From: Clostridia bacterium
GTDB lineage: Bacteria; Bacillota; Clostridia; Oscillospirales; CAG-272
Length of the DNA: 64,000 nucleotides
Assembly (NCBI GenBank): GCA_017453205.1
Contig: JAFTKO010000032.1
Coordinates: forward strand, 1 to 64,000
Reading direction: 5' to 3'
Positions within the stretch are counted from its first letter, which is position 1; each line of letters opens with the position of its first letter. Shown piece after piece: positions 1,656 to 15,319 of the stretch. The translations under genes and the position numbers were made by a program. Below the pieces are notes generated by a model that saw only the letters and a program-made list of their open reading frames with translations, made no database searches and was not told where the DNA came from.

Positions 1656-1948
1656 GGTTTTAGATGAAGTTAAAACCGATTGATCGGTCGCAAGACCGAT
1701 AAAAAATTAAAAAGCAGTTAGCAATCTCTAACCGAATAATTAGGAAACGCATATCGGCCTTCGGGTCGATATTGTATTTTACGGCAATGTTACCCATAGG
1801 TAACAAAATTCAATATCTTGAATTGCGGTCGAAAGACCGTTTTAATAAACCTGTTTGTTGCCTATGGGTAACAAATTTAAGGCGTACAAAAAACAACACA
1901 AGCGGCAAGTCTACGCAGATGGTGAAAGATAGCAAAGGAGAAGATGGC
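1656..1948 (+). ncRNA. highly structured 5' leader RNA of the ABC operon
   Basis: At least eight local hairpins follow each other: 1656-1677 (GGTTTTA/TAAAACC), 1683-1700 (GCAA loop), 1717-1732, 1751-1772 (nine pairs closed by TTCG), 1789-1804, 1807-1824 (seven perfect pairs), 1825-1840 (GAAA loop) and 1857-1872. The stems at 1683 and 1825 are near copies (CGGTCGCAAGACCG and CGGTCGAAAGACCG). In addition 1790-1800 is perfectly complementary over 11 bases to 1861-1871, so hairpins 1789 and 1857 can be exchanged for one long-range helix. There is no convincing ORF. GNRA and UUCG loops argue for selected RNA structure. It matches no riboswitch class I can name. Whether it acts in cis or as a separate RNA is not known. 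Confidence 0.6.
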
Positions 1949-4018
1949 GTGTTATTAAAACTCCAAAACATCGGAAAAATTTATGACTCAAACGACATTT
2001 TGACAATCGGCATCCGAGGTGTCAATCTGGAGCTTGATTATAATGAATTCGTGATCATCGAGGGTGAATCGGGCTCCGGTAAAAGTACCTTGCTCAACGT
2101 GATCGGTGCCAACGATACATACGAGGAAGGCGAGCTGTACTTTGAGGGAATGGAAACCTCACACTATTCGGAGAGCGAATGGGAAAAGTACAGAGAGCAG
2201 AACATTGCTACCGTCTTTCAGGATTTCAATATTATAGAAAACTTAACGGTTTTGGAAAACGTGGAGCTTGCGCTGCTTCGCATTGAGAACAGGAGCGAGC
2301 GTATCCGCATTGCCAAATCGCTCATCGAGCGCGTTGGACTCTCCAAGCAGGCAAACCAAAAGGGTAGCCGTCTCTCGGGCGGTGAAAAACAAAGAACCGT
2401 GATTGCCCGTGCTCTTGCGAAGGACTCTCCGATCATCCTTGCTGACGAGCCTACGGGAAACCTTGATGTGAAATCCTCCAAGGAGGTTGCGGCTCTGCTT
2501 AAAGAGGTATCCAAGGATAAGCTTGTGATCGTGGTTACGCATAACCCCGAATACTTTCATCAGTATGCAACGAGGAAGGTTCGTATCTATGACGGTCGTG
2601 TATCTGAGGATACGGTGATTGAAAAGCCCGATACGAGCCGTAAGGTAGAAAAGAAGGTTGTAAAGCCTGCTACCAAAAAGCAAAATCTCAAAAATACCTT
2701 TTGGCTTGGCGTTCTCAACTACAAGAGCCGTCCCCGCTTTACTTCCTTGATGAGCTGTGCTCTGATCATTGCGGCAATTACGGTATTTATGGTGTTGACA
2801 CTTTTTAGCGGTTCGTTGATACAGCCCATGACCGCCACCCTTGACGAAGTTCCGATAGAAGGAAAGGTCATCGTATCTACCGAGGATGGACTCTTAGAGG
2901 AAATGGAGGTTTCACAGATCGCAGGCGCGACTGAAGCAGGATATTTCCTCGAAGACAATGATATATCCTCCTTTACCATTGAAATCGCCAAAGCGAGCGG
3001 TATGCTCGATGCCTATACAGTACATTGCGTATATGCTCCGTATCAGTATGCCCTTGAAGCCGGAAATGCCGTTCTCGTATTGCCGAGCTCTGCATCGAAG
3101 GATGCTGAAACGATTAAAAATACGTTTCTTGGCGCAAACGCCGGACTTCATACCATTGAGGTGGAGAAAACGCTGACCTCAAATCAAGTGATCCTTTATA
3201 TCGGTTATGACGATCTGACACAGAACGGAAAGAAGATCGAAGCCATCAACTCCGAAATGAAGATTGGTGACGATACTGCTATCGCCTATACCTTTGAAAT
3301 CAATGAGGCGCTTCTTCCCGGGGAGGTCAATCTTGTCAACTCCAACTTTTGGGATGTCAAGGATAAGGGTGTTGTACTTTCCGTCAAAGCAAATCAGGCA
3401 TACACCATTGTAAACGATGATGAGCTGAACGAAAGTGTTTCGGGCGTTATTGTACAGATGAATGCCGAGGATTATAACGCCATCTTCAATGAAGTGATCG
3501 TAGAAGGCGAAGAATCCTGTCTCTACTTTGCAACCGACGAGCTGGCACAGGCGGCAATCGCTAAGCTTCCCGAGGGCTATATCGGTCTGCTTTCCACAAG
3601 CGAGATCTTCGTGCAGGATGCAGGTGAGGTATTCACGACCAACATTATATATTATCTTGCATTGATTGCCATCAGCTTTTGCTTTGCAATGATCATCAGT
3701 ATTATCTTTATGCGTAGCATTAAGATCTATCAAACCGACTTTACGGTTTACAGAACGCTGGGTATTTCAAGAAGAATATCCTCCCGTTCTCTTTACATTC
3801 AAATGGCTTTGATGTTTGTTCCCACACTGTTCTTATTGCCCTTGATTTCCTTTGTGGCAACGGTGATTCCCGGCAGCGGAATGACCTTTATCAGCCTTGG
3901 AAACTACATCTTTATTGAAATTCTGATGCTCTTGATCGTTGAGATTGTTGCATACGGATTTAACAAAAACATTAGCGGTCAGTCGATCCGCAAGAGCTTA
4001 AGGAGGGGATCGAAATGA
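1949..4018 (+). CDS. ABC transporter, ATPase fused to FtsX-like permease (first of pair)
   Basis: The start is set at GTG 1949 because AAAGGAG lies eight bases upstream and homology begins at LLKLQNIGKIY; more upstream codons fall in the structured leader. The 689-residue protein has a MacB/LolD-type ATPase (Walker A GESGSGKST 39-47, signature LSGGEKQR 142-149, Walker B with ADEPTGNLD 165-173). This is followed by one membrane helix near 265-288, an extracytoplasmic domain of about 270 residues, and three helices near 563-587, 617-640 and 654-672. This is the MacB topology. It probably works as a heterodimer with the next gene, which overlaps its stop by four bases (ATGA). The extracytoplasmic domain suggests handling of exported or lipid-linked substrates; the true substrate is unknown. 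Confidence 0.9.
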   Translation: MLLKLQNIGKIYDSNDILTIGIRGVNLELDYNEFVIIEGESGSGKSTLLNVIGANDTYEEGELYFEGMETSHYSESEWEKYREQNIATVFQDFNIIENLTVLENVELALLRIENRSERIRIAKSLIERVGLSKQANQKGSRLSGGEKQRTVIARALAKDSPIILADEPTGNLDVKSSKEVAALLKEVSKDKLVIVVTHNPEYFHQYATRKVRIYDGRVSEDTVIEKPDTSRKVEKKVVKPATKKQNLKNTFWLGVLNYKSRPRFTSLMSCALIIAAITVFMVLTLFSGSLIQPMTATLDEVPIEGKVIVSTEDGLLEEMEVSQIAGATEAGYFLEDNDISSFTIEIAKASGMLDAYTVHCVYAPYQYALEAGNAVLVLPSSASKDAETIKNTFLGANAGLHTIEVEKTLTSNQVILYIGYDDLTQNGKKIEAINSEMKIGDDTAIAYTFEINEALLPGEVNLVNSNFWDVKDKGVVLSVKANQAYTIVNDDELNESVSGVIVQMNAEDYNAIFNEVIVEGEESCLYFATDELAQAAIAKLPEGYIGLLSTSEIFVQDAGEVFTTNIIYYLALIAISFCFAMIISIIFMRSIKIYQTDFTVYRTLGISRRISSRSLYIQMALMFVPTLFLLPLISFVATVIPGSGMTFISLGNYIFIEILMLLIVEIVAYGFNKNISGQSIRKSLRRGSK

Positions 4019-6492
4019 TTAAGATAGAAAATATCGGCAGAGTATTCAATCCCCGTTCAAGAAATCGCAACCAAGTTTTGAAGGGCGTATCCTTTGAGCT
4101 CCCCGAAAAGGGGCTTGTGGCGCTGTTCGGTAAATCGGGTAGCGGTAAGACCACCATGCTGAACATCATCGGAGGTCTCGACAGGCAGGATAGCGGTAAG
4201 ATCTACATAGACGGCGAATGTACAAGCGGAAAGGTAGACCGAATCCGCAATGCCAAGATCGGCTTTATCTTCCAAAACTATTATCTTGAAAAAGGTTATA
4301 CCATTTCCGAGATCATGCGAAATCAAATGATGATCGCCGGATTCAAGGATGAAGCCGAGATTGCTCGCAGAACATCGGCGGTCTTGCAGCTCGTGGAAAT
4401 GGAGCGCTACAAGAACAAACAAGGTGATGCGCTTTCGGGCGGTCAGAAGCAAAGAGTGGCGATTGCCCGTGCGCTTATTAAGGGCGCGGATGTGATCCTT
4501 GCCGACGAACCCACGGGAAACCTTGACGTGCAGAATACCATTAAGGTTATGGATATTCTGAAAGAAATATCCAAAACCAAGCTCGTTGTCCTTGTTACAC
4601 ACGAAATCACTCTGATTAAACGCTATGCGGATAGTTATATCGAGCTTGTGGACGGCGAGATCAGCAACACAAGCACCATCACAGAAAACGTGCGATATGA
4701 CGTAGAGCGCAACAATATTTACGCTGACGAAAGCACCGCGAGAGAGGTAAGACAGGACGGACTCGGTATTACTCTTTACGGAGATCCGATACAGACCGAA
4801 AGCGACCTTCAGATCTTCAATGACGGCGGCACCGTTTACCTAAAGGTTGGCAAGAGTGTTTCTATCATTGATGATGCAAGCGAAAAGAAGGTCGTATTCA
4901 AAGGAAATACCGAGAGTGACATAGCGACAGAAGAAAAAACTCCCGTTCCTGTGTTTGAAAAGAGTAAATCAAAACGAAACGGTAAGCTCTTTAACATCAA
5001 GCGTGTATTTGGACTTTTCCGCAGAGATAGTGAAGAACGCTTCTATTCCACCTCAAACGTATTCAAGCAAATATTTATCTGTGCCATTGCAGCCGTAATC
5101 TGTTTCTTTGCCTTCAACGTGTTTGAGATCGCCAATATGACGATTGAAAACAAAAGCGTAAATGAGAACAGCATTTATACAAGCTTGAACGCTTACTCGG
5201 AGCTACGCCGTATGGATGAGAGCAAGTACGAATCCATTGACTTCTTTGATACCCATATGCTGACAGGTAGCTTCTCGTATAGCGATATGGCGGCACTTGC
5301 CAATATTGAAGCCGATTATACTCCGAAAGCCATCAATACAGGAGATACCTTTGAGGGGCTTTACGGTAAGATGCCCGAGGTTGGAGAAATTCTGATCTCT
5401 CGCGCTCTTGCGGAAAAGCTGAAAACCGAGTTTCGCATGGAGGAGCTGTCAAATGACAAATCTCTCCTTCTCGTATCCTTTGATAACACCTTCAAGATCA
5501 GCGGTATCGTGGACGGCGGCGAATCCTTTGTTTATATGAACAAGAGTGATTATGTCAACTTCCTCGGCGTATTTGCAAGCATGAATTTTTCGGATACCAA
5601 CGGGTTGTTTTTCAAGGACAACTACGGCGCAAAGAATTATACCGTAGAGATACGTCTTGCCGAAAAGGAGCTTGCAAACGATAAAGTACTTGTTGAGATC
5701 AACCGCAACTCGCTTTACAAGATGATGGTTGACAGTACACAGGCGGACTATGAGGTAGAGCTGACCAACACGCAGCTCGCGCATACGCCTTACGCCATTC
5801 AAATTACGAACAGTAAGATGTACGTGGAAAAATTTGAGATCACAAGAGATGTGATGACTACCGATATCCGAATCTATGTCAATTCCGAGGTTTTGGATAA
5901 CATTTTTGTGTATATGTCCCCGAACCTCGATGCTCTTGGAACGAGAACAGCGGCAAACGGAATGCAATCGGCGTACTACTTTGAGATTGAAACCGCCGAC
6001 AGCGCACAACTGACACAGCTTAAAAATGAGCTGCGTGACAGAGGTGTTACGTCGGTAGATATTAACGCCATCTATGAGCGTGAGAATACCGAGATTTTGG
6101 AGGAAAGCCGTGAAGGACTCAACATCTTCTATGTGATGATCGTGCTTCTGCTTCTAATATACTACTTCATTGAGAAATCCGGTAGTATCAAGAACAGTAA
6201 GGAATACGGTATTTACCGAGCGATCGGTGTCAACAAGAGCAATCTACTTTTTAAGGAGTGCATTGCAACCCTTGTCAGCAACATCATCGGTTATCTCGTA
6301 TGCTTCGCTGTTGTAACCACGGTAATTTGTATCAGATACGCAGTGATGAACGTTGTATTTACCGGCTTTGTCGGTATCGCACTTGCTATGTTCGGCATCA
6401 GTGCCGCGCTTATGGTTGCGATCTCGATGATCCCTTATACCTTCGTGCTTTATCAGACTCCCGCAAAGATTCTGACCAAGTTCGATATTTAA
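4015..6492 (+). CDS. ABC transporter, ATPase fused to FtsX-like permease (second of pair)
   Basis: This 825-residue protein overlaps the previous gene by four bases. The N-terminal ATPase has Walker A GKSGSGKT (39-46), signature LSGGQKQR (140-147) and a Walker B ending in DEPTGNLD. A short beta-rich linker (about 245-325, with repeated turns such as TLYGDPIQTESDLQIFNDGG) comes before the first membrane helix (349-370). A 330-residue extracytoplasmic domain follows, then three helices near 701-721, 751-775 and 785-808. The loop SKEYGIYRAIGVNKSNL is the FtsX coupling motif. Two unequal ATPase-permease fusions in tandem point to an obligate heterodimer. The linker has no counterpart in the partner and may be specific to this system. 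Confidence 0.9.
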   Translation: MIKIENIGRVFNPRSRNRNQVLKGVSFELPEKGLVALFGKSGSGKTTMLNIIGGLDRQDSGKIYIDGECTSGKVDRIRNAKIGFIFQNYYLEKGYTISEIMRNQMMIAGFKDEAEIARRTSAVLQLVEMERYKNKQGDALSGGQKQRVAIARALIKGADVILADEPTGNLDVQNTIKVMDILKEISKTKLVVLVTHEITLIKRYADSYIELVDGEISNTSTITENVRYDVERNNIYADESTAREVRQDGLGITLYGDPIQTESDLQIFNDGGTVYLKVGKSVSIIDDASEKKVVFKGNTESDIATEEKTPVPVFEKSKSKRNGKLFNIKRVFGLFRRDSEERFYSTSNVFKQIFICAIAAVICFFAFNVFEIANMTIENKSVNENSIYTSLNAYSELRRMDESKYESIDFFDTHMLTGSFSYSDMAALANIEADYTPKAINTGDTFEGLYGKMPEVGEILISRALAEKLKTEFRMEELSNDKSLLLVSFDNTFKISGIVDGGESFVYMNKSDYVNFLGVFASMNFSDTNGLFFKDNYGAKNYTVEIRLAEKELANDKVLVEINRNSLYKMMVDSTQADYEVELTNTQLAHTPYAIQITNSKMYVEKFEITRDVMTTDIRIYVNSEVLDNIFVYMSPNLDALGTRTAANGMQSAYYFEIETADSAQLTQLKNELRDRGVTSVDINAIYERENTEILEESREGLNIFYVMIVLLLLIYYFIEKSGSIKNSKEYGIYRAIGVNKSNLLFKECIATLVSNIIGYLVCFAVVTTVICIRYAVMNVVFTGFVGIALAMFGISAALMVAISMIPYTFVLYQTPAKILTKFDI

Positions 6493-6558: not shown

Positions 6559-9500
6559 ATGGCAAAAAGTCAGAAAAGAGTCATTACCGCACTTGCCTTG
6601 GTAATGCTGCTCTTACTCAGTGTCTGCGCGTTTTCGGCGTGCGGAAGCAAGGACTACACTGTTACCTTCATGATCGAAGATAAAAGTGAAGTCGTTTCGG
6701 TTGTGGATGGCAAGGTAACACTACCCGAAGATCCCACTAAGGACGGATATATTTTCCGTGGTTGGTACACAGATGAAGCTTGTACTCAGGCATTTGATGC
6801 AAATGCTGAAATAACAAGCGACATGACGGTGTATGCGTATTTCGTACCCGTTACCGCAAATGTTCACATAAATGGTGTGGACAAAGGAGAGGTTCAGATG
6901 AAGGATTATGCTACCTTCACCAAGAGCTATCAGGATGATGCACTTTCGCAGAGCCTCACATTTGACGGTTGGTACATTGATGCAGGCTACACCACAAAGT
7001 ATACTACACAAGATGTAGATGACCTCTACGGACGTTACATGGCAGAGGTTGTCTTTGATAACGGTTATGAGATCGTTTATACAACGCTTGTGCAGACGGG
7101 TACAGTAATGGCTCAGCCCGAGATTGCAAGCATACAAAAGAACTACATGGATGCAGAGGATCTTTCCTATGTTGATGCTGACGGAAACGCATTTGATTTC
7201 AATAAAGAAATTTCTGTCAACACCACGGTAACGGTGCTTTGGAAAACGCCTTACCTCATTTATGAAAAAATCGAGGGTTCGGCAAACTACAAGGTAATCG
7301 GTCTTGCCCGTGACGCTATGGACACTTGGATGCAATATCCTTGTATCTCTATTCTTTCCAAGAACATAACTGTCGGAGAGGATGAGAGCGGTAACAAGAT
7401 TGTTGCAAACGTCGTGTCCTTTGACGGTCAGGCTTCCTCTACGGAGAGCCATTCCTTTGGATACATCAATGCCGCCAAACAGATCATGTTTGCGGACGGT
7501 ATTGAATATATCACCAATCTGCAGGGTACGATGAATAACGTCTGCGAGAAGATCATTCTTCCCGAAACGCTCAAGGTGCTTGAAAAGTCCATTTGGAACT
7601 ACGATATGCTGACATACTGCAATGTTCCCGAGAGCCTTGAGGTCATCATCGACTGCTTCTGGAAGCATTACCTCGAAGGCATTGTAGATACGTACAGAGG
7701 TTCTAATACTTACGATTTTGAGATTGCTATTCCCGCAGGCATCAAAACGTTGGCTATGGTACCCGCCACTGTGAAGTTTGCAGATGGAGCACCCTACGTC
7801 GTTGAGGATGGTATGATGTACAAAAAGGATGGCGATGATAAGATTCTGATTTCTGTATATCAATCGAACGTGAAGGACGGCAATCTGACCGTTCCCGAGG
7901 GTGTAACGAAAATTCACGTCGGCGTACTGAACAAGGTCGATTGCTCTTATATTTATCTCCCCTCTACGCTGACAGGCGTTGAGTACACCGTTGACGCATC
8001 CGAATACGATACGGTCTACGACGGTAGCTATCTTACAAAGCAGCAGTATCTTACAGCACCTATGGGCGTTGGAATGTATAATGATGCTTTTGCACTCACC
8101 GATAAGCTTGATAAATTGACATATGTTGTATTCAACACTACCGCATACCCCTTCGGCGATAACAATTACCTCTTCCTTGCTTCTATTCTGAACAAAGGTA
8201 TCTTTACCTATGATCAGCTTGAGGAAACAAAGCTGGTGTTCACAGGCGAGGTGAAAGAGGGCGATATTTCCGTGAATGTTTCCTATAAAAATGTAATGGA
8301 CGGTACGGATGCAAAAAAGACGACCCTCACGTTCCCCACGGGTACTGTGCTTGAAAGAGAAGCATTCCTTTCCCAGCTTGGCATTACATCCGAGGCGCTC
8401 GGTGTCAACGTTAAGGTAACCTCTATCGAGCAGTTTGGCGTAGAGTATGCCTTTGGTGCAAAGAATTGCAATCAGTATATTGAGATCATTTACGAGTATG
8501 ACGTTAAGGGCTTTACCACTACCGAAAATGCCGACGGTACTCTGACTGTTACCGGATTTGACCAAAACACCGCTCAGCTTCTTGATAACGGAACGTATTT
8601 GATCGTTATCCCCAACGAGCTTGACGGTAAGGTTATCACTGCCATTGCTGAGGGCGCATTTAAGGGCAACAATGCTATCTCTAAAGTGTATATCGGCAAT
8701 AGCGTTAAGACCATTGGTGCGGAGGCTTTTATGAACACCTCCAACCTCGAATATCTCTCGGTAACTCCCGGCGGTCTTGAGGTGATCGGCAGAAGCGCAT
8801 TTGAAAATATGGGCTGTATCAATGAAAACGGCAAATGGGTGATGAACCCCGAAATGCCCGATTTTAAGTTTGTGAACTATACGAAAAAGACAGCATATAT
8901 CTATATTCCTCTTGCAAACCTCAAAACCGTTGAGCCCTATGCTTTCAAGTCTATGGCAATTGCTTCCTTTATGCCCGTAGAGGGAGAAACGGACAGAATT
9001 TTGATGAAGTTTGCTTACGGTCAAGATCCTATGTACCCGAATCCCGTTGAAAACGAATTCTACTATCTTATCGATGCATCGGGTGATGTTACCGGTATCA
9101 TTCAGTATGTTGGTAGGGATACCGTGGAGCAGTACAGTTGTATTGATGCGACCCAAAAGGTAAACGTTACGGTTTGGGATGTACGACTTGTGGCAACGAT
9201 CAGCGGCACAAAAGCTTCGGATAGCATTACGATCGGTTGGGAAGTAAGACCTTTTGCGGCATACTTCGGAGAAGCCTTTGACACAAACGTGCTTCGCTAT
9301 GAAGTTATGGAGGGTTCTGTTTATTACAGATCCAACGTTGCATTCGGTATTGTAAGCAAGGTTCACAAAAACGCTTTCACTGATATGGGAACAACAAACT
9401 CCAGTGGTGAAGAGGTCGAAGGAAAGGTTTCTGTTTATAACCGTACCGGAGATAACGGATGGATCCAAAAGGATGATGTTATCAATCAAAACAGCGAGAT

Positions 9501-9597
9501 ATTTGAAGACGGTTGGTGGGAAGGCATTCCCAACAGCGAGAACACGGTAACGAACGAAGATAAAGTGGGTGACTTCACCTCCTTATTGATTTCTTAA
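6559..9597 (+). CDS. large lipoprotein with InlB B-repeat and BspA-type leucine-rich repeats
   Basis: The start ATG 6559 follows AAAGGAG. A lipoprotein signal with lipobox FSAC (Cys28) predicts anchoring to the outer face of the membrane. Residues 34-95 form a Listeria-Bacteroides (InlB B) repeat with the hallmark GYIFRGWYTDEACTQAFD, and a second, weaker copy follows (LTFDGWYIDAGYTTKY). BspA/LRR_5-like stretches occur at several places, for example AIAEGAFKGNNAISKVYIGN and SVKTIGAEAFMNTSNLEYL around residues 690-745. These modules bind proteins or glycans in known surface proteins. It lies 66 bases after the second ABC fusion and probably belongs to the same transcript, suggesting that it is a substrate-binding or adhesive partner of the transporter. 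The protein has 1012 residues. Confidence 0.85.
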   Translation: MAKSQKRVITALALVMLLLLSVCAFSACGSKDYTVTFMIEDKSEVVSVVDGKVTLPEDPTKDGYIFRGWYTDEACTQAFDANAEITSDMTVYAYFVPVTANVHINGVDKGEVQMKDYATFTKSYQDDALSQSLTFDGWYIDAGYTTKYTTQDVDDLYGRYMAEVVFDNGYEIVYTTLVQTGTVMAQPEIASIQKNYMDAEDLSYVDADGNAFDFNKEISVNTTVTVLWKTPYLIYEKIEGSANYKVIGLARDAMDTWMQYPCISILSKNITVGEDESGNKIVANVVSFDGQASSTESHSFGYINAAKQIMFADGIEYITNLQGTMNNVCEKIILPETLKVLEKSIWNYDMLTYCNVPESLEVIIDCFWKHYLEGIVDTYRGSNTYDFEIAIPAGIKTLAMVPATVKFADGAPYVVEDGMMYKKDGDDKILISVYQSNVKDGNLTVPEGVTKIHVGVLNKVDCSYIYLPSTLTGVEYTVDASEYDTVYDGSYLTKQQYLTAPMGVGMYNDAFALTDKLDKLTYVVFNTTAYPFGDNNYLFLASILNKGIFTYDQLEETKLVFTGEVKEGDISVNVSYKNVMDGTDAKKTTLTFPTGTVLEREAFLSQLGITSEALGVNVKVTSIEQFGVEYAFGAKNCNQYIEIIYEYDVKGFTTTENADGTLTVTGFDQNTAQLLDNGTYLIVIPNELDGKVITAIAEGAFKGNNAISKVYIGNSVKTIGAEAFMNTSNLEYLSVTPGGLEVIGRSAFENMGCINENGKWVMNPEMPDFKFVNYTKKTAYIYIPLANLKTVEPYAFKSMAIASFMPVEGETDRILMKFAYGQDPMYPNPVENEFYYLIDASGDVTGIIQYVGRDTVEQYSCIDATQKVNVTVWDVRLVATISGTKASDSITIGWEVRPFAAYFGEAFDTNVLRYEVMEGSVYYRSNVAFGIVSKVHKNAFTDMGTTNSSGEEVEGKVSVYNRTGDNGWIQKDDVINQNSEIFEDGWWEGIPNSENTVTNEDKVGDFTSLLIS

Positions 9598-9679: not shown

Positions 9680-12600
9680 ATGAAAAAAATCATATTATTA
9701 GTGCTTTGCGGTATCATGATTTGTGCGGTCTTTACGGGATGCGGTCAGAATTCAACATCTGTATCGCCACAGGATGCAATTGCAGATGCATACGGAGATA
9801 CCGAATATAAAATATCCTTTATGTCCGAAGGCCTCAGCACGCCCATTGAAAGCATTACTTATACTGCAAACAAAATGCCGGTCTTACCTACGCCCGAAAA
9901 GATAGGATATATTTTCTCGGGCTGGTATTTCGATAAGGAATATACCGTTCCGTACGTAGACGGTATCCTTTACCTCTATATGCGTGACGTGACTCTTTAC
10001 GCAAAATGGGAAAAAGAGAGCTTTGCGACCAACGGTACCTATGATCTTGAATATAGTGCAAAAATATTGGAAGATACCATTGTGAAAGGTAGCTTCACCG
10101 ATGAGGGTGGCGGATATATGGACTTTACCGAAAGTCTGATCGCCGAAGAAATTTATCTTGAAAAATCCGACGGTAAGCTACTACTGAGACTTCAATATGA
10201 CACAAAATATTTGCTCCCGATGTTTAATTCCGTGGGAGAAGTATACTCCGTAACGGTATCCTCAAGAATGGGAACGTCCGTTTACATAGAGGATAAGGTC
10301 CATTCGCTTGCTGATCCCGTAAAAACAATTTTTATCAATCTTACAGATTTTAATCTTGAAGATACCCTGTATCTTGACATTCAAACGGTTAACTGGGCGA
10401 ATGATGAGCTCAGTGATTCGGAGCGGATCAATACATTGACTCGCTATACCGTTGCCATTGATTTTACCAAGATCATCGGCTTTTCGCGCTCCTACGTGAA
10501 CACCGAAGTCCCGCTGGAGAAGGGGTATTACCTTGTAAAATCATATTACCGTAAGGAAAATAACGGAACAACGATGGCGGATTCATTTAATCCCGTTTAT
10601 TCTTATCTGTATTCCGACGGAAACGAAAATTACACCTTAATTAAGCAAAATATTCCCTATGCAGGACTTACCTCCAATTCGGGATTGACAATAGAAAATA
10701 CTGCCGACAACTACTATAACAGGATGATGTCCTTGATCCCCATTCAGCTTTTTTACGAAATTACAAATCCTCCCGAAGGCAATGAAGAAGTAGAATCCGA
10801 CTATTATCCCGCTACTTACGGTGGGCAGTATTACGGCGCTTATGCGATGGAATATCACGCTGACACAGGCAAATTCTATAATATTTACAATCTTGGCAGC
10901 AATTTGAAAAGTAGTTATATAGTCATGAACGCTGTAACAGGATTTATGGAAATTGCAAGCGGAATGGGCTATAACGATCTTATATTGGAGATTGACTACG
11001 ACCATATTATCAAGCTCGCTACCGTGGATTACGAGCCTCTGACAGGCGACAGCTTCCAGTATCAGACCGATATGCAGTATTATCCCGGTAACAGCAACGA
11101 TCTGTCTAATAAGAATATGTGTTATGAACTTATGACGGACGGCGGTCTTTCTACCGATATGATCAATTTCTTCTATTCTACGTTGGATTCTATGCTTCCG
11201 ACCACCTCGAGAACGCAGTACAGCAGTCGTATCACCGTCACGCCCACTGTCGGTACAAATGCAAATAAGGTGGCGGATTCTCGTTATATGATGGCTTATT
11301 TTGATGTCAACGCGCAGGTGTTCGGTTACGATTATACCTCGGAAGAAAAGCTCTATGCCGATTCTATGACGGTACAGAGTATGGGCATTAGTGGTATGCG
11401 TCGGGACATCGAGATCAACGTGGGCAAGAGCTGTACTGTCGGCGAAACCATACGACTTGCCGAGATCTACGCTGAAAAATGCGATGCCACCACAGATTTT
11501 TCATCCGTTACGTGGACAGCATACGCCATGAAGAACGGTAAAGCCGATTATAGCAATAAGCTGAATATTGGGAATGTCTTTACCTTCTCGGAAAGTGTTG
11601 CCATACTCTTTGAAACAAAGGCAGACACCGGAACGAGAAGAACGCTTGTGGAACTCGCGGAGTACGAAGCACCCGACATCACCATCAAGAGCTCCGAGAA
11701 TTTCCCATATGATGCGAATGCGGAATATGCCGTTGGGGATACCGTAGGTTATCCCAACGTCTCCTATGACTGGATGGGTAAGAGCGCGGATATGATCGGT
11801 ACATTCTTTGCAGACCCGACGGCACAGGAGATTGATTATAGCATCAATATCGTGAAAACGGCGATCTTTGAGGATGCAAATGGAGTATATTACTGGTGTG
11901 GCTACGGTAAATATAATGATACAACCTTTGAGGTTCCTGCGGAGAAATTTATCGTTGTTTACGAGCTTGAAAACAAGTACGGCGAGAAGTATTACCACGC
12001 TGTCCCCTTTGTTTGCAACAGCAGGCTTGACTATTTTGTCGAGAACAGCGCAGGCGACATTTTGGAGACTGATGGAGTCAGATATGATGCCGCAGGTGCG
12101 CGCCGTGCCATTTCTACGACTCTGCAAAGCGAACGTTTGACGGCTGAAAATTATGCGAAATTGTTAAATGAAACATATGTCCTACGTATCGGCGATTTTG
12201 CAAGAAATTATACAATTTACAGCTATACTCTTTATACCGATACTATTACGGAAGAAGAAATTTTGATCAACGAAGACCAAAATACCGCAATAGAGGATCT
12301 TTGGAAAAAGATAGATGGCTCAAAGTACGCTGTGCTGGAGTTGGTTCATAGATTCGGCGATGACAGCGTGATTGCCACGTATTATTACAATCTCAATTTT
12401 GCGGGTAAGCACAGCACCGAAATGCTGGACTGCGAAGACTATTTTGTAGGGCATGAATATGCGTTCTCCACTCCCGCATTGTATGATGCCGAGGGCAATC
12501 GAATCGCAGGAGGCTATGCTTATTGTGGCGAAAGAGGCTCGACGGTGGTAAGGGATTATTACCAATACCGAGTGACCTTCTCTCAGGCGAGCGATTACAC

Positions 12601-13441
12601 CCTCCATCAAAGATACAATTTTGACGGGTTGACCTTGACTTTTTCACAAAAGATCCATATTTGGAACAATAATGTGGACGTTACGGTGACCTATGTGACC
12701 GATGCCGCGCATCCTTTTGATGACGGCACTTTGGAACGAACTGTGACCTATAACCTGACAGAGAATATGTACGCAATGAAAAAGGCGGGCTTTGCCGACA
12801 GTATTCCCGGCTCGGATGTTCTTTATGGTTGGACTATGAACGAAGGAAGTTACTCCATTGTTGTTGGTGGAGGCAAGTTGTTTGAGGATTTCATTGCTAC
12901 ATTTAATTCTAGAAATGTTACGCTGTATACTGTTTGGGATCCCGGTCTGACACTTACGATCAATAGAGGTGACGGTACCTCGTATAAAAAGACTTATTAT
13001 ATCGGCAGCCAAGGCAATTATCAAATTTCTGGTGGTGATTTCAAGGCAACCGTTCCCGACGGTTATCAATTGGCAGGTTGGGAGTGCGGTCTTTTTGATG
13101 GAGTGAGAAAGCAAACGTATTATTATATCAGACCCGCAAAAGTGGATTGGGATAATCCCGATAGCTTTGTTTTGAACCCGGTGTTCAAAAAGGAGCTCAC
13201 AGTAAAATATTCCGTAGATACCAATTATACCGATGCATTCTTCCGTAATGAGACTGTTTTGGAAGGTAATAGTGTGGTTTTTTCTTCCAATAAGATTCAC
13301 GTTAACTGTAAAGTAGATGGCTACGAATTTGCGGGCTGGTATATTCAAGGAGATTCCGAGCAGACCTTGATCGACCTTGAAACCTATATTGTCACCGAAA
13401 ACGTAACTCTCGTTGCAAAATTTGTTCCTGCGGAGGATTGA
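9680..13441 (+). CDS. very large lipoprotein with InlB-type repeats at both ends
   Basis: ATG 9680 follows AAGGAGA. The signal peptide ends in the lipobox FTGC (Cys21). An InlB B-like repeat covers about residues 45-115 (GYIFSGWYFDKEYTVPY, then LYAKWEKE), and several more degenerate copies fill the last 240 residues (DVLYGWTMNEGS, YQLAGWECGLFDG, DGYEFAGWYIQGDSEQ). The long middle, about 115-1000, is beta-rich, unusually full of Tyr, Asp and Thr, and shows no domain I recognise. The 1253-residue length and lipid anchor suggest a long surface stalk or receptor. It is separated from the preceding lipoprotein by a terminator but has the same design, so the two may be diverged paralogues or partners. 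Confidence 0.82.
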   Translation: MKKIILLVLCGIMICAVFTGCGQNSTSVSPQDAIADAYGDTEYKISFMSEGLSTPIESITYTANKMPVLPTPEKIGYIFSGWYFDKEYTVPYVDGILYLYMRDVTLYAKWEKESFATNGTYDLEYSAKILEDTIVKGSFTDEGGGYMDFTESLIAEEIYLEKSDGKLLLRLQYDTKYLLPMFNSVGEVYSVTVSSRMGTSVYIEDKVHSLADPVKTIFINLTDFNLEDTLYLDIQTVNWANDELSDSERINTLTRYTVAIDFTKIIGFSRSYVNTEVPLEKGYYLVKSYYRKENNGTTMADSFNPVYSYLYSDGNENYTLIKQNIPYAGLTSNSGLTIENTADNYYNRMMSLIPIQLFYEITNPPEGNEEVESDYYPATYGGQYYGAYAMEYHADTGKFYNIYNLGSNLKSSYIVMNAVTGFMEIASGMGYNDLILEIDYDHIIKLATVDYEPLTGDSFQYQTDMQYYPGNSNDLSNKNMCYELMTDGGLSTDMINFFYSTLDSMLPTTSRTQYSSRITVTPTVGTNANKVADSRYMMAYFDVNAQVFGYDYTSEEKLYADSMTVQSMGISGMRRDIEINVGKSCTVGETIRLAEIYAEKCDATTDFSSVTWTAYAMKNGKADYSNKLNIGNVFTFSESVAILFETKADTGTRRTLVELAEYEAPDITIKSSENFPYDANAEYAVGDTVGYPNVSYDWMGKSADMIGTFFADPTAQEIDYSINIVKTAIFEDANGVYYWCGYGKYNDTTFEVPAEKFIVVYELENKYGEKYYHAVPFVCNSRLDYFVENSAGDILETDGVRYDAAGARRAISTTLQSERLTAENYAKLLNETYVLRIGDFARNYTIYSYTLYTDTITEEEILINEDQNTAIEDLWKKIDGSKYAVLELVHRFGDDSVIATYYYNLNFAGKHSTEMLDCEDYFVGHEYAFSTPALYDAEGNRIAGGYAYCGERGSTVVRDYYQYRVTFSQASDYTLHQRYNFDGLTLTFSQKIHIWNNNVDVTVTYVTDAAHPFDDGTLERTVTYNLTENMYAMKKAGFADSIPGSDVLYGWTMNEGSYSIVVGGGKLFEDFIATFNSRNVTLYTVWDPGLTLTINRGDGTSYKKTYYIGSQGNYQISGGDFKATVPDGYQLAGWECGLFDGVRKQTYYYIRPAKVDWDNPDSFVLNPVFKKELTVKYSVDTNYTDAFFRNETVLEGNSVVFSSNKIHVNCKVDGYEFAGWYIQGDSEQTLIDLETYIVTENVTLVAKFVPAED

Positions 13442-13445
13442 CGGT

Positions 13446-14741
13446 ATGAAAAGAAAAATGAAATTGTTTTCAACCCTTCTGTGTGCCTTGATGCTCACGC
13501 TTACCGTTTTCGGTGGTGTGCGTGCATCGGCGGTATCTCCCGTAGGCGGTAGCGACGGTACGTATTCCGTTCCCGTCAACCTTGACGGACTTACGATGGG
13601 AGCAGATAATTTTTCCTCCACCGCAGCGGTTGAGAAAAGCGGCGACTTCTATTATATGTCCTTCGGTCATTCATCGAGCATCAGCAATATGAAGCTCGTC
13701 AGCGGCAATAAGGTGAATGGATATACTTCAAGAATCGAAGATGGTTGGACGATCTATACCTACACTTTGAGTGCTTCAAGATTGCAGGGTAACCTCTCCT
13801 TTACCGCTTTTATCACAGCAATGGATAAGGAGGTCAGCTTCTCCATCTCTCTTAATCTCGCAGGAGCAACCAAGACAAGCGACAGCATCCGAGATCTCGG
13901 TGAACGTCCTGCGGAGTTTGTTCCCATATTTACGATGGAGGGCGAAGGAAACTATCAGGTATCGATCGGCTCGGTGTTTGCCGTACCGGAAGCAAGCGCG
14001 GTTCTTGGCTCTGAAGCGTGTGACGTGACCGTATCCGCTTACTATCTCCGAGAGGGAGTAAAAGAGCCCGTTGAGATCACGGACAATCGTTTTACACTCT
14101 CCGAGGTCGGTGAATACCACCTCATCTACAAAGCCACACACGCAAGCTATAAGACCGAGCTTGGCAACGATACCTACACTGAGCTTGATTTCACCATCAC
14201 CTCAGTAGCAGGCGGCAGTCAGCTTGCAAAGGTAGAGGACGAAAAAGGCGTTCTTCCCGAAGATACCGCTATTATGGCGAGATACATCACGGGCGGTACG
14301 GTGTTTGATACGGCAAGCGAGAAAATGGCGACCATTGCCGATAACTTTGAAGTGTTCAGCGTATCTCTCACGGATGCAAGCGGCTCTGCTGTAACGCCTA
14401 CGGAGAACGTGAAGATCTATCTCAAAGCAAAATCGACCTTTGACCGCAACAAAATCGTGGTTTACGCTATGAACGAGGACGGCTCACTTACCGAAATTGC
14501 TTGTGACGGATACGGAAAATACGTGGTGTTTGAAACGACACACACGGGCAATTTCATTGTCTGTGTTCCCGGCGTTGCCTTTGTAATGCCTATGTGGGGT
14601 TACGCGCTTATCTGTGTTGGCGCAATCGTTCTGATTGCAGGCGGTATCACCGCAATTATCATTGTAAAGAAAAGAAAAAAGAAAAAACAGAATCAAGGTA
14701 ACAATACCACCGAAAACGAGTCATCTCATTTCCGGCGATAA
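13446..14741 (+). CDS. membrane-anchored surface protein with NEAT-like domain
   Basis: The start is ATG 13446, five bases after the previous stop, with GGAGG at 13432. An N-terminal signal peptide (about 1-30) is followed by a roughly 105-residue domain starting GTYSVPVNLDGLTMGADNF and containing YYMSFGHSSSISNMKLV and a sequence-ending strand DKEVSFSISLNL. The order and spacing of these elements resemble NEAT (haem/iron surface) domains. The haem-ligating YxxxY pair of the last strand is absent (MDKEVSFSI), so haem binding is doubtful. Two further beta domains follow, then a membrane helix near 384-406 and a strongly basic tail (KKRKKKKQNQ). The protein has 431 residues. The NEAT reading is by eye and needs a profile search. 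Confidence 0.6.
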   Translation: MKRKMKLFSTLLCALMLTLTVFGGVRASAVSPVGGSDGTYSVPVNLDGLTMGADNFSSTAAVEKSGDFYYMSFGHSSSISNMKLVSGNKVNGYTSRIEDGWTIYTYTLSASRLQGNLSFTAFITAMDKEVSFSISLNLAGATKTSDSIRDLGERPAEFVPIFTMEGEGNYQVSIGSVFAVPEASAVLGSEACDVTVSAYYLREGVKEPVEITDNRFTLSEVGEYHLIYKATHASYKTELGNDTYTELDFTITSVAGGSQLAKVEDEKGVLPEDTAIMARYITGGTVFDTASEKMATIADNFEVFSVSLTDASGSAVTPTENVKIYLKAKSTFDRNKIVVYAMNEDGSLTEIACDGYGKYVVFETTHTGNFIVCVPGVAFVMPMWGYALICVGAIVLIAGGITAIIIVKKRKKKKQNQGNNTTENESSHFRR

Positions 14742-14816: not shown

Positions 14817-15113
14817 ATGAGGCACAAAGAATCGGAAGAAATGTATCTTGAAACAATACTGCTTCTTCAAAAGAAAAACGGATATGCTTGCTGTGTAGAT
14901 ATTGCGGCGGAGCTTGGCTATTCAAAGACGAGCGTTTCCCGTGAAATGAAGCTACTTTCCAAGTAAAAATTATATTACGCTTGGAAAGCACAGCGAGGTT
15001 CTGCTGACCCGACATCGGACAAGCACAGGCGGAAAAGGTTTATGAAACGCATCGCATTGTTATGGATCTGCTGATGCGGCTTGGTGCGGATGAAACGCTG
15101 GCAGAGGAAAACG
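14817..15113 (+). pseudogene. broken DtxR/MntR-type metal-dependent repressor
   Basis: After a strong GAGGAGG site, the frame starting at ATG 14817 reads MRHKESEEMYLETILLLQKK and continues as DIAAELGYSKTSVSREMKLL, the N-terminal winged helix of a DtxR/MntR-family regulator. It stops at TAA 14964. The rest continues in another frame (GQAQAEKVYETHRIVMDLLM, then RLGADETLAEENA), matching the dimerisation region. The gene then runs into unrelated sequence near 15114. At least one frameshift and a 3' truncation make it non-functional as written. It follows the NEAT-like gene, so it may once have controlled a metal-linked surface system, but this is inference. Confidence 0.7.
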
Positions 15114-15285
15114 CCCGTCTGAATGCCGCTATGGATAAGCTCACGGACAAGCAGTATCACGTCCTTTGGAGTACGCCGTGGATGGACTCACTTATGAGGA
15201 AATTGCGTTAGAAATGGGTATCCGCTGGGATACGATGAGAGAGCATTATCACGCGGCTGTGAAAAAAGTTCAAAAATATTTTTGA
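15114..15285 (+). pseudogene. sigma-70 region 4-like fragment, frameshifted
   Basis: The segment LNAAMDKLTDKQYHVL is followed, after a frameshift near 15170, by DGLTYEEIALEMGIRWDTMR and a short tail ending KVQKYF at a TGA (15283-15285). This is the helix-turn-helix layout of small sigma-like regulators often carried by integrative conjugative elements of gut Firmicutes. The 5' part is missing because the segment is fused directly to the DtxR fragment. Confidence 0.5.
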
Positions 15286-15319
15286 CCCCCCCAAAAAAAC
15301 GCCATTTTCGTGGCAATAG

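Follow-up and report, generated by a model that had tools for sequence, protein, structure and literature searches.

The window, by which we mean the whole stretch of 64,000 nucleotides that was analysed, carries a strong promoter, a leader of 293 nt with eight short stems, and an operon of ABC transporter and surface-protein genes that ends in a broken regulator gene. The features, including the stems (the first stem-loop, A1, B1, A2, B2, the stem-loop at 1807-1824, A3 and B3), are the following:

1621-1649, + strand: promoter TTGACA-17-TATAAT with 12/12 consensus matches and TG preceding the -10 element; promoters of 11-12/12 are typical of the operator-bearing genes of the genus
1656-1677, + strand: 5'-terminal stem-loop of 8 pairs, at the expected transcription start
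1683-1700, + strand: hairpin A1, GCAA tetraloop, 7 pairs, followed by an A-rich stretch without a U-tract; ends 15 nt before B1
1716-1731, no strand assigned: palindrome B1, GTTAGC-AATC-TCTAAC, one mismatch from a genus-wide DtxR-type operator
1751-1772, + strand: hairpin A2, TTCG tetraloop, 9 pairs, terminator-like; ends 16 nt before B2
1773-1780, + strand: U-rich tract TGTATTTT, ending 8 nt before B2, the commonest spacing in the family
1789-1804, no strand assigned: palindrome B2, GTTACC-CATA-GGTAAC, a variant with two symmetric changes, from the palindrome search
1807-1824, + strand: stem-loop AATTCAA-TATC-TTGAATT, read from the sequence
1825-1840, + strand: hairpin A3, GAAA tetraloop, 6 pairs, then TTTAATAA; ends 16 nt before B3
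1857-1872, no strand assigned: palindrome B3, GTTGCC-TATG-GGTAAC, a variant and near-exact inverted copy of B2, from the inverted-repeat search
1934-1940, + strand: Shine-Dalgarno sequence AAAGGAG, preceding a GTG start at 1949, read from the sequence
1949-4018, + strand: ABC protein 1, ATPase domain and membrane part (ABC_tran match)
4015-6492, + strand: ABC protein 2, ATPase domain and membrane part (ABC_tran match)
6559-9597, + strand: surface protein with a Listeria-Bacteroides repeat and BspA-type leucine-rich repeats (Pfam)
9680-13441, + strand: large surface protein with Listeria-Bacteroides repeats (Pfam)
13446-14741, + strand: surface protein (431 aa) without a family match over the cut-off; its G028 orthologue has weak NEAT/IsdC matches
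14817-14966, + strand: N-terminal piece of a DtxR/MntR-family gene, broken afterwards (PF01325, 2.7e-7, 31.1 bits, cut-off 26)

The original prediction had described a perfect promoter followed by a leader of about 290 nt with eight short stems, three of them closed by GCAA, TTCG and GAAA tetraloops. All of this was found, the three tetraloops being those of A1, A2 and A3. The RNA fold of 1656-1948 reached -87.6 kcal/mol (z -6.5), a value as low as which was seen in none of 200 shuffles, and a second fold run gave z -6.2. When the three B palindromes were scrambled in place, z fell to -2.7, -3.5 and -3.9 in three runs, and with the palindromes cut out it was -2.5. The complementary strand of the leader also folds well (z -5.1). 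Because scrambling or removal of the palindromes weakens the fold and the complementary strand folds as well, much of the fold signal comes from palindromes that are sensible as DNA.

Two stems had been described as near copies, which is correct for B2 and its inverted copy B3. The long-range helix claimed for 1790-1800 and 1861-1871 is also real and is longer than stated, with 20-nt arms (1788-1807 and 1854-1873) that are 95% complementary. Since B2 and B3 are near-exact inverted copies of one palindrome with complementary half-sites, the alternative pairings and the long-range helix follow automatically. The helix needs no switching role, and a switch formed by the two pairings is not supported. 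The layout had been said to belong to no known class, and Rfam agreed: there was no match at the gathering score, and a relaxed search gave four, the best with an E value of 0.25, far below gathering.

When the leader was searched as DNA against 295 family genomes, the matches listed outside the source genome numbered 34, of which 31 covered the promoter region only and three were to different stretches of 23-29 nt. A stretch of the leader is repeated with 100% identity on contig C37 of the same assembly, where the leader and at least two other stretches of the window lie at mirrored coordinates; this is apparently redundancy or duplication in the assembly.

The B palindromes match GTTAGC-N4-GCTAAC at 11/12 (B1), 10/12 (B2) and 9/12 (B3) positions. 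A search of five genus genomes with GTTRSS-N4-SSYAAC returned, besides the window pair, GTTAGC-N4-GCTAAC palindromes, often paired. The perfect form is present in 31 of 35 genus genomes, often as pairs, and the sites adjoin FeoB, ABC and ZIP genes and a DtxR-family gene of the genus. Their position was counted at the listed 11-12/12 promoters with a site nearby, window and orthologue excluded (n = 32), and at 31 of these 32 strong promoters the site begins 1-13 nt after the -10 element. Other sites lie exactly within the -35/-10 spacer (loci L108 and L121); at L099, L123, L126, L169 and, with one mismatch, L114 the site begins 79-91 nt upstream of the -10 end. Spacer and upstream sites cannot be RNA hairpins of that transcript, and the class therefore acts as a DNA operator; GTTAGC-N4-GCTAAC is a predicted operator of the DtxR/MntR type. 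Other members of the regulon have their first operator at the position where the leader has the stem-loop 1656-1677, which may be a 5' stabiliser or a diverged operator; no operator was found at the transcription start in the leader.

The B2 form, GTTACC-N4-GGTAAC, is at background in the family, occurring in 12 of 246 genomes including the source genome. This is about the same as for the reversed control, and such palindromes were rejected as a class of their own. The simplest account of B2 and B3 as candidate sites would be an operon-specific regulator with its own variant operators.

The operon itself offers a candidate for such a regulator. Its DtxR-like piece (14817-14966) is 55% identical over 47 residues to a 126-aa DtxR protein in the orthologous operon of genome G028. 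The supposed continuation, in another frame, reads like a continuation and gave no Pfam match, and a PF02742 search of the 73%-complete source genome gave neither a match nor a complete regulator gene. The recognition helix of the piece is SKTSVSREMKLL; 8 of the 13 genus loci listed have SKPSVSRAMGLL and the rest have close forms. Judged from the protein sequence, this helix change would fit the altered operators B2 and B3. From about 15,110, after the broken DtxR/MntR-family gene (14817-15300 region), the sequence reads like mobile-element DNA. As for the first two genes, a two-gene ABC-FtsX system had been expected. ABC_tran was matched by both proteins and FtsX, at E 0.001, by neither, though the gene ending at 749 matches it; the expectation was thus borne out only in part.

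Only one true orthologue of ABC gene 1 was found, in G028, with 60% protein identity and conserved neighbours. Its leader (L043) keeps variant B-type palindromes, namely GTTAGG-CAAT-GCTAAC, GTTAGG-CATA-CCTAAC and a weaker one upstream of the promoter. It has no A hairpins and is not alignable with the window leader; in this one orthologous leader, with its 60% identical ABC protein, the expectation that the hairpins are kept on divergence held for the B-type palindromes and failed for the A hairpins. The G028 leader has T7, then 8 nt, then GTTAGG; the terminator hairpin there is weak (-3.9 kcal/mol), and neither a hairpin nor a T-run precedes the second B site. One palindrome changes symmetrically between the two leaders, from GTTACC..GGTAAC to GTTAGG..CCTAAC, a change in a single unalignable leader that DNA symmetry explains equally well.

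Further along, the G028 operon encodes a DtxR/MarR-like protein of 127 aa, two ABC proteins of the exporter type, a transporter of the ECF type and the 126-aa DtxR protein. This locus (L185, G028:C14:1-12000) thus brings the ABC and surface-protein genes together with ABC proteins resembling CydDC, an ECF transporter resembling MptD and two regulators of the DtxR/MarR kind, and the operon is possibly a metal or heme uptake island. Heme uptake as such was considered and set aside: the G028 protein matches NEAT (0.0028) and IsdC (0.0032) only weakly and the window protein gave no match. Upstream of the orthologous operon lie an ABC pair and then ZIP and methyltransferase genes with a perfect operator pair (L098:14121-17068, - strand). 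The leaders of 28 other ABC homologues were read (14 + 14; the homologues are more numerous) and none had such an array. Five leaders of other ABC homologues in the family (L084, L096, L073, L089 and L090) carry GTAAC ... CGTC/TATA boxes, which resemble ECF sigma-factor promoters; no such boxes were seen on reading the window leader.

Hairpins A1, A2 and A3 end 15, 16 and 16 nt before B1, B2 and B3, all within the 15-18 nt of the module described below. A T-run about 8 nt before the operator is present at A2-B2 (TTTT, gap 8) and absent at A1-B1 and A3-B3. The full geometry of hairpin, TGTATTTT, 8 nt and palindrome is thus found only at A2-B2, A1 having no U-tract and A3 a poor one. A2 was scored as terminator-like in an 8-kb scan that gave seven such sites, no more than the 7.6 of shuffles. 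Canonical tetraloop hairpins, counted as C(GNRA)G or C(UNCG)G loops on at least 6 pairs, number three on the + strand of the 64-kb window, all three in the leader, and two on the minus strand; 55,004 bases from elsewhere in the source genome contain 11 on the two strands together. Such hairpins are not rare in the genome, and it is the cluster of three in the leader that is rare. CGGTC-N4-GACCG, the A-type palindrome, was not supported as a second operator, with no second cluster among the matches listed.

The spacing between hairpin and operator recurs across the order. Operators that follow a strong promoter at a distance of more than 25 nt number 26, a set that includes B1, the G028 site and 15 sites of the orthologous feoA-feoB type by position, and in this set T has a frequency of 0.73-0.92 at each position from -15 to -9 (feoA was named by reading the neighbourhood and the C-terminus; FeoB alone was matched by profile). 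Hairpins were tested in 124 oriented views of loci fetched regardless of T-runs (L189-L218 left out), a number that counts orthologues and both directions, with L127 and L128 each counted twice. Non-operator hairpins ended 15-18 nt before the operator in 20 of the 124 views, against 6.2 ± 2.2 and a maximum of 13 in 200 shuffles; not all of these 20 views have a T-run. With operators counted as hairpins the number rose to 24, four of which were neighbouring operators. Runs of at least five T ending 8-10 nt before the operator were present in 17 of the 124 views (shuffles 3.1, maximum 11).

When 395 family genomes were searched with the gap pattern, 181 matched, from 52 of 71 genera, and the gap from T-run to operator was exactly 8 nt in 45 of the 150 matches listed. 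The other families of the order gave matches in 103 of 295 genomes, with a gap of 8-9 nt in 63 of the 128 matches listed after removal of the window's own family; some of the 150 and the 128 are two views of one site. A phylum sample matched in 14 of 319 genomes, two of them in the order; outside the order 12 of 315 genomes matched, and 4 of the 17 matches listed there also have the 8-nt gap.

A FeoB gene lies downstream in 59 of 274 oriented views, a set that includes L189-L218, which were fetched by the T-run pattern. T-runs or hairpins at the module spacing also precede DUF2325, ABC, NifH-like and weakly DtxR/MarR-like genes. Where the leader belongs to the first gene, the module follows the one strong promoter found and precedes the gene. 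Locus L125 has two modules in tandem. At L221 and L113 the palindrome of the first operator, with T-rich sequence, replaces the terminator hairpin before the second operator, and at L127 and L128 one hairpin lies midway between two operators, 16 nt from each, and would serve both directions. At L206 a NifH-like gene (PF00142, 4.2e-94) follows the T-run and operator, and the regulon may include nitrogenase-like proteins.

On balance we lean, with modest confidence, towards a leader built of three hairpin-operator modules in tandem, which would form a repressor-switched attenuator before a metal-related transport and surface-protein operon. The B palindromes would be DNA operators of a metal-dependent repressor of the DtxR/MntR family, probably the product of the gene with which this operon ends. 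Each A hairpin would just have left RNA polymerase, or be leaving it, when the enzyme meets the repressor at the next B palindrome. A polymerase stopped by an operator-bound protein would have its active site at the U-tract, and since the U-tract would sit there we propose a terminator made by the repressor. With plentiful metal, the bound repressor would hold the polymerase, the hairpin (and at A2 the U-tract) would promote its release, and transcription would stop in the leader. When metal is scarce the repressor would leave and the polymerase would read through. The metal-loaded repressor would in this way convert a weak terminator into an effective one. Because A1 has no U-tract and that of A3 is poor, A1-B1 and A3-B3 may act as hairpin-backed roadblocks.

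This reading builds on what is established, namely the sequence anatomy, the operator class, the promoter positions, the recurrent spacing and the DtxR-like piece in the operon. From these we infer that B2 and B3 are bound, that termination occurs and that the metal is iron. Several points speak against it: of the 12 positions of the operator consensus, 2 are changed in B2 and 3 in B3, the regulator piece of the operon is broken, the hairpin of the orthologue is weak, and the transcription start has no operator.

The operators may be real and the repressor a plain roadblock or an agent of DNA looping, with A hairpins that stabilise the message or keep the B arms apart and no termination at all. 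Operators do occur on both sides of promoters, many repressors act as roadblocks (PMC10310618, accessible part), A1 lacks a U-tract, and the accessible text on the chlamydial repressor YtgR proposes that it blocks polymerase independently of a specific RNA structure (PMC6504234). Such a roadblock leaves unexplained why hairpins end at 15-18 nt and why T-runs throughout the order end 8-9 nt before operators, and we consider it unlikely.

It is quite unlikely that the leader is a ligand-sensing riboswitch or an RNA-only attenuator in which the local B2 and B3 hairpins exchange with the B2-B3 helix. The fold is strong, three stable tetraloops are clustered in 293 nt, the pairing in B3 is preserved via G-U, and B2 and the second G028 site share the CATA centre with two stem pairs swapped, all of which would suit an RNA. 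Against this, there is no Rfam match, the orthologue has no A hairpins, and several operators of the class cannot be in a transcript. One-mismatch operators, which are necessarily asymmetric, are also more frequent (n = 14) than two-mismatch operators (n = 8), and among the four two-mismatch sites listed the two symmetric ones are those of the window and G028 leaders. The CATA centre of B3 is moreover on the opposite strand only, as DNA would allow. The choice of riboswitch, attenuator or stand-alone RNA in the original prediction can thus be narrowed: an attenuator fits best, and for an RNA switch there is no RNA-family evidence. The multi-hairpin leader is most likely not a riboswitch, and what switches the attenuator is probably a metal repressor on the DNA and not an exchange of RNA pairings.

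The module could also serve insulation, with the terminator ending upstream transcription and the operator governing an internal promoter for the gene that follows, an arrangement like that of the trpRBA intergenic region in Chlamydia. The position upstream of a FeoB gene in the 59 oriented views given above would suit this, as would YtgR, which, in the accessible part of the report, represses an internal promoter and ends upstream transcripts (PMC6504234). At L112, L125, L127, L128 and in the window, however, just one strong promoter was found; the module lies between it and the gene, where a further promoter would hardly fit, and we regard insulation as very unlikely. That only B1 is a relic operator, with B2, B3 and the A hairpins belonging to an unrelated RNA or DNA element, is likewise very unlikely: pairs of the B2/B3 forms were found nowhere else, and most of the 35 genus genomes have more CGGTC-N4-GACCG palindromes than matches to the reversed control, so that A-type palindromes exist elsewhere, though with no second cluster among the matches listed, but the spacing of 15, 16 and 16 nt matches the order-wide module and the orthologue likewise has symmetric variants.

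Returning to the repressor-switched attenuator, the leader is best filed as a variant of repressor-dependent attenuation in a DtxR-type regulon, and the general module is the more interesting result. More tentatively, the module may represent an order-wide class of repressor-gated terminators, in which a DtxR-family repressor about 8 bp past the U-tract (15-18 bp after the hairpin) would turn on a weak intrinsic terminator. A single protein would then govern the start as well as the end of transcription for feoAB, ABC transporters, a DtxR-like gene and further genes, and the window leader would be a three-module version tuned to an operon-specific paralogue.

Repressors bound to DNA and intrinsic terminators are usually regarded as two distinct levels of control. 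Roadblock-assisted termination is known from TTF-I and Reb1 at rRNA genes, and if the spacing of terminator and operator is fixed across many genera and gene families, the module would be a natural bacterial counterpart. It makes the cooperation of bound protein and hairpin in RNA polymerase release directly testable. The leader is also a warning that multi-hairpin leaders found by sequence alone can be DNA operator arrays.

In the accessible parts of the open-access literature we found no described class that joins a hairpin and a bound protein at a fixed spacing. Intrinsic-terminator attenuators and DNA-bound roadblocks, as covered in the accessible part of PMC10310618, are like the leader in that control is exerted after initiation, by hairpins or by bound proteins. 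The operator of EqbA from Streptococcus equi, GTTAGA-TGTA-TCTAAC inside a 36-bp palindrome, is needed for gel shifts, which Fe2+ and Zn2+ enhance, according to the accessible text of PMC3672683. As in the window class, a DtxR-like regulator there serves a metal-uptake locus (equibactin) through half-sites of the same length and spacing; unlike the window leader, the locus is described in that text with a single 36-bp palindrome at the promoter and no leader array. MntR at mneP of Bacillus subtilis offers a parallel for the array, since the available part of a preprint (PMC11275975) describes several weak sites in a row that take several dimers of this DtxR/MntR-family protein. The four mneP sites span 84 bp and serve activation, whereas the window sites are about 70 bp apart inside a transcribed leader. 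Iron-dependent termination at an operator has a precedent in YtgR trans-attenuation of trpRBA in Chlamydia trachomatis, where, in the accessible parts of PMC6504234 and PMC7755916, an iron-dependent repressor at an operator inside the transcription unit ends upstream transcripts, as the operator-bound repressor would in the leader. Steric blockage without a specific RNA structure is suggested for YtgR in the accessible text of PMC6504234, whereas in the module described here a hairpin, often followed by a U-tract, precedes the operator at a fixed distance, and does so in several gene families.
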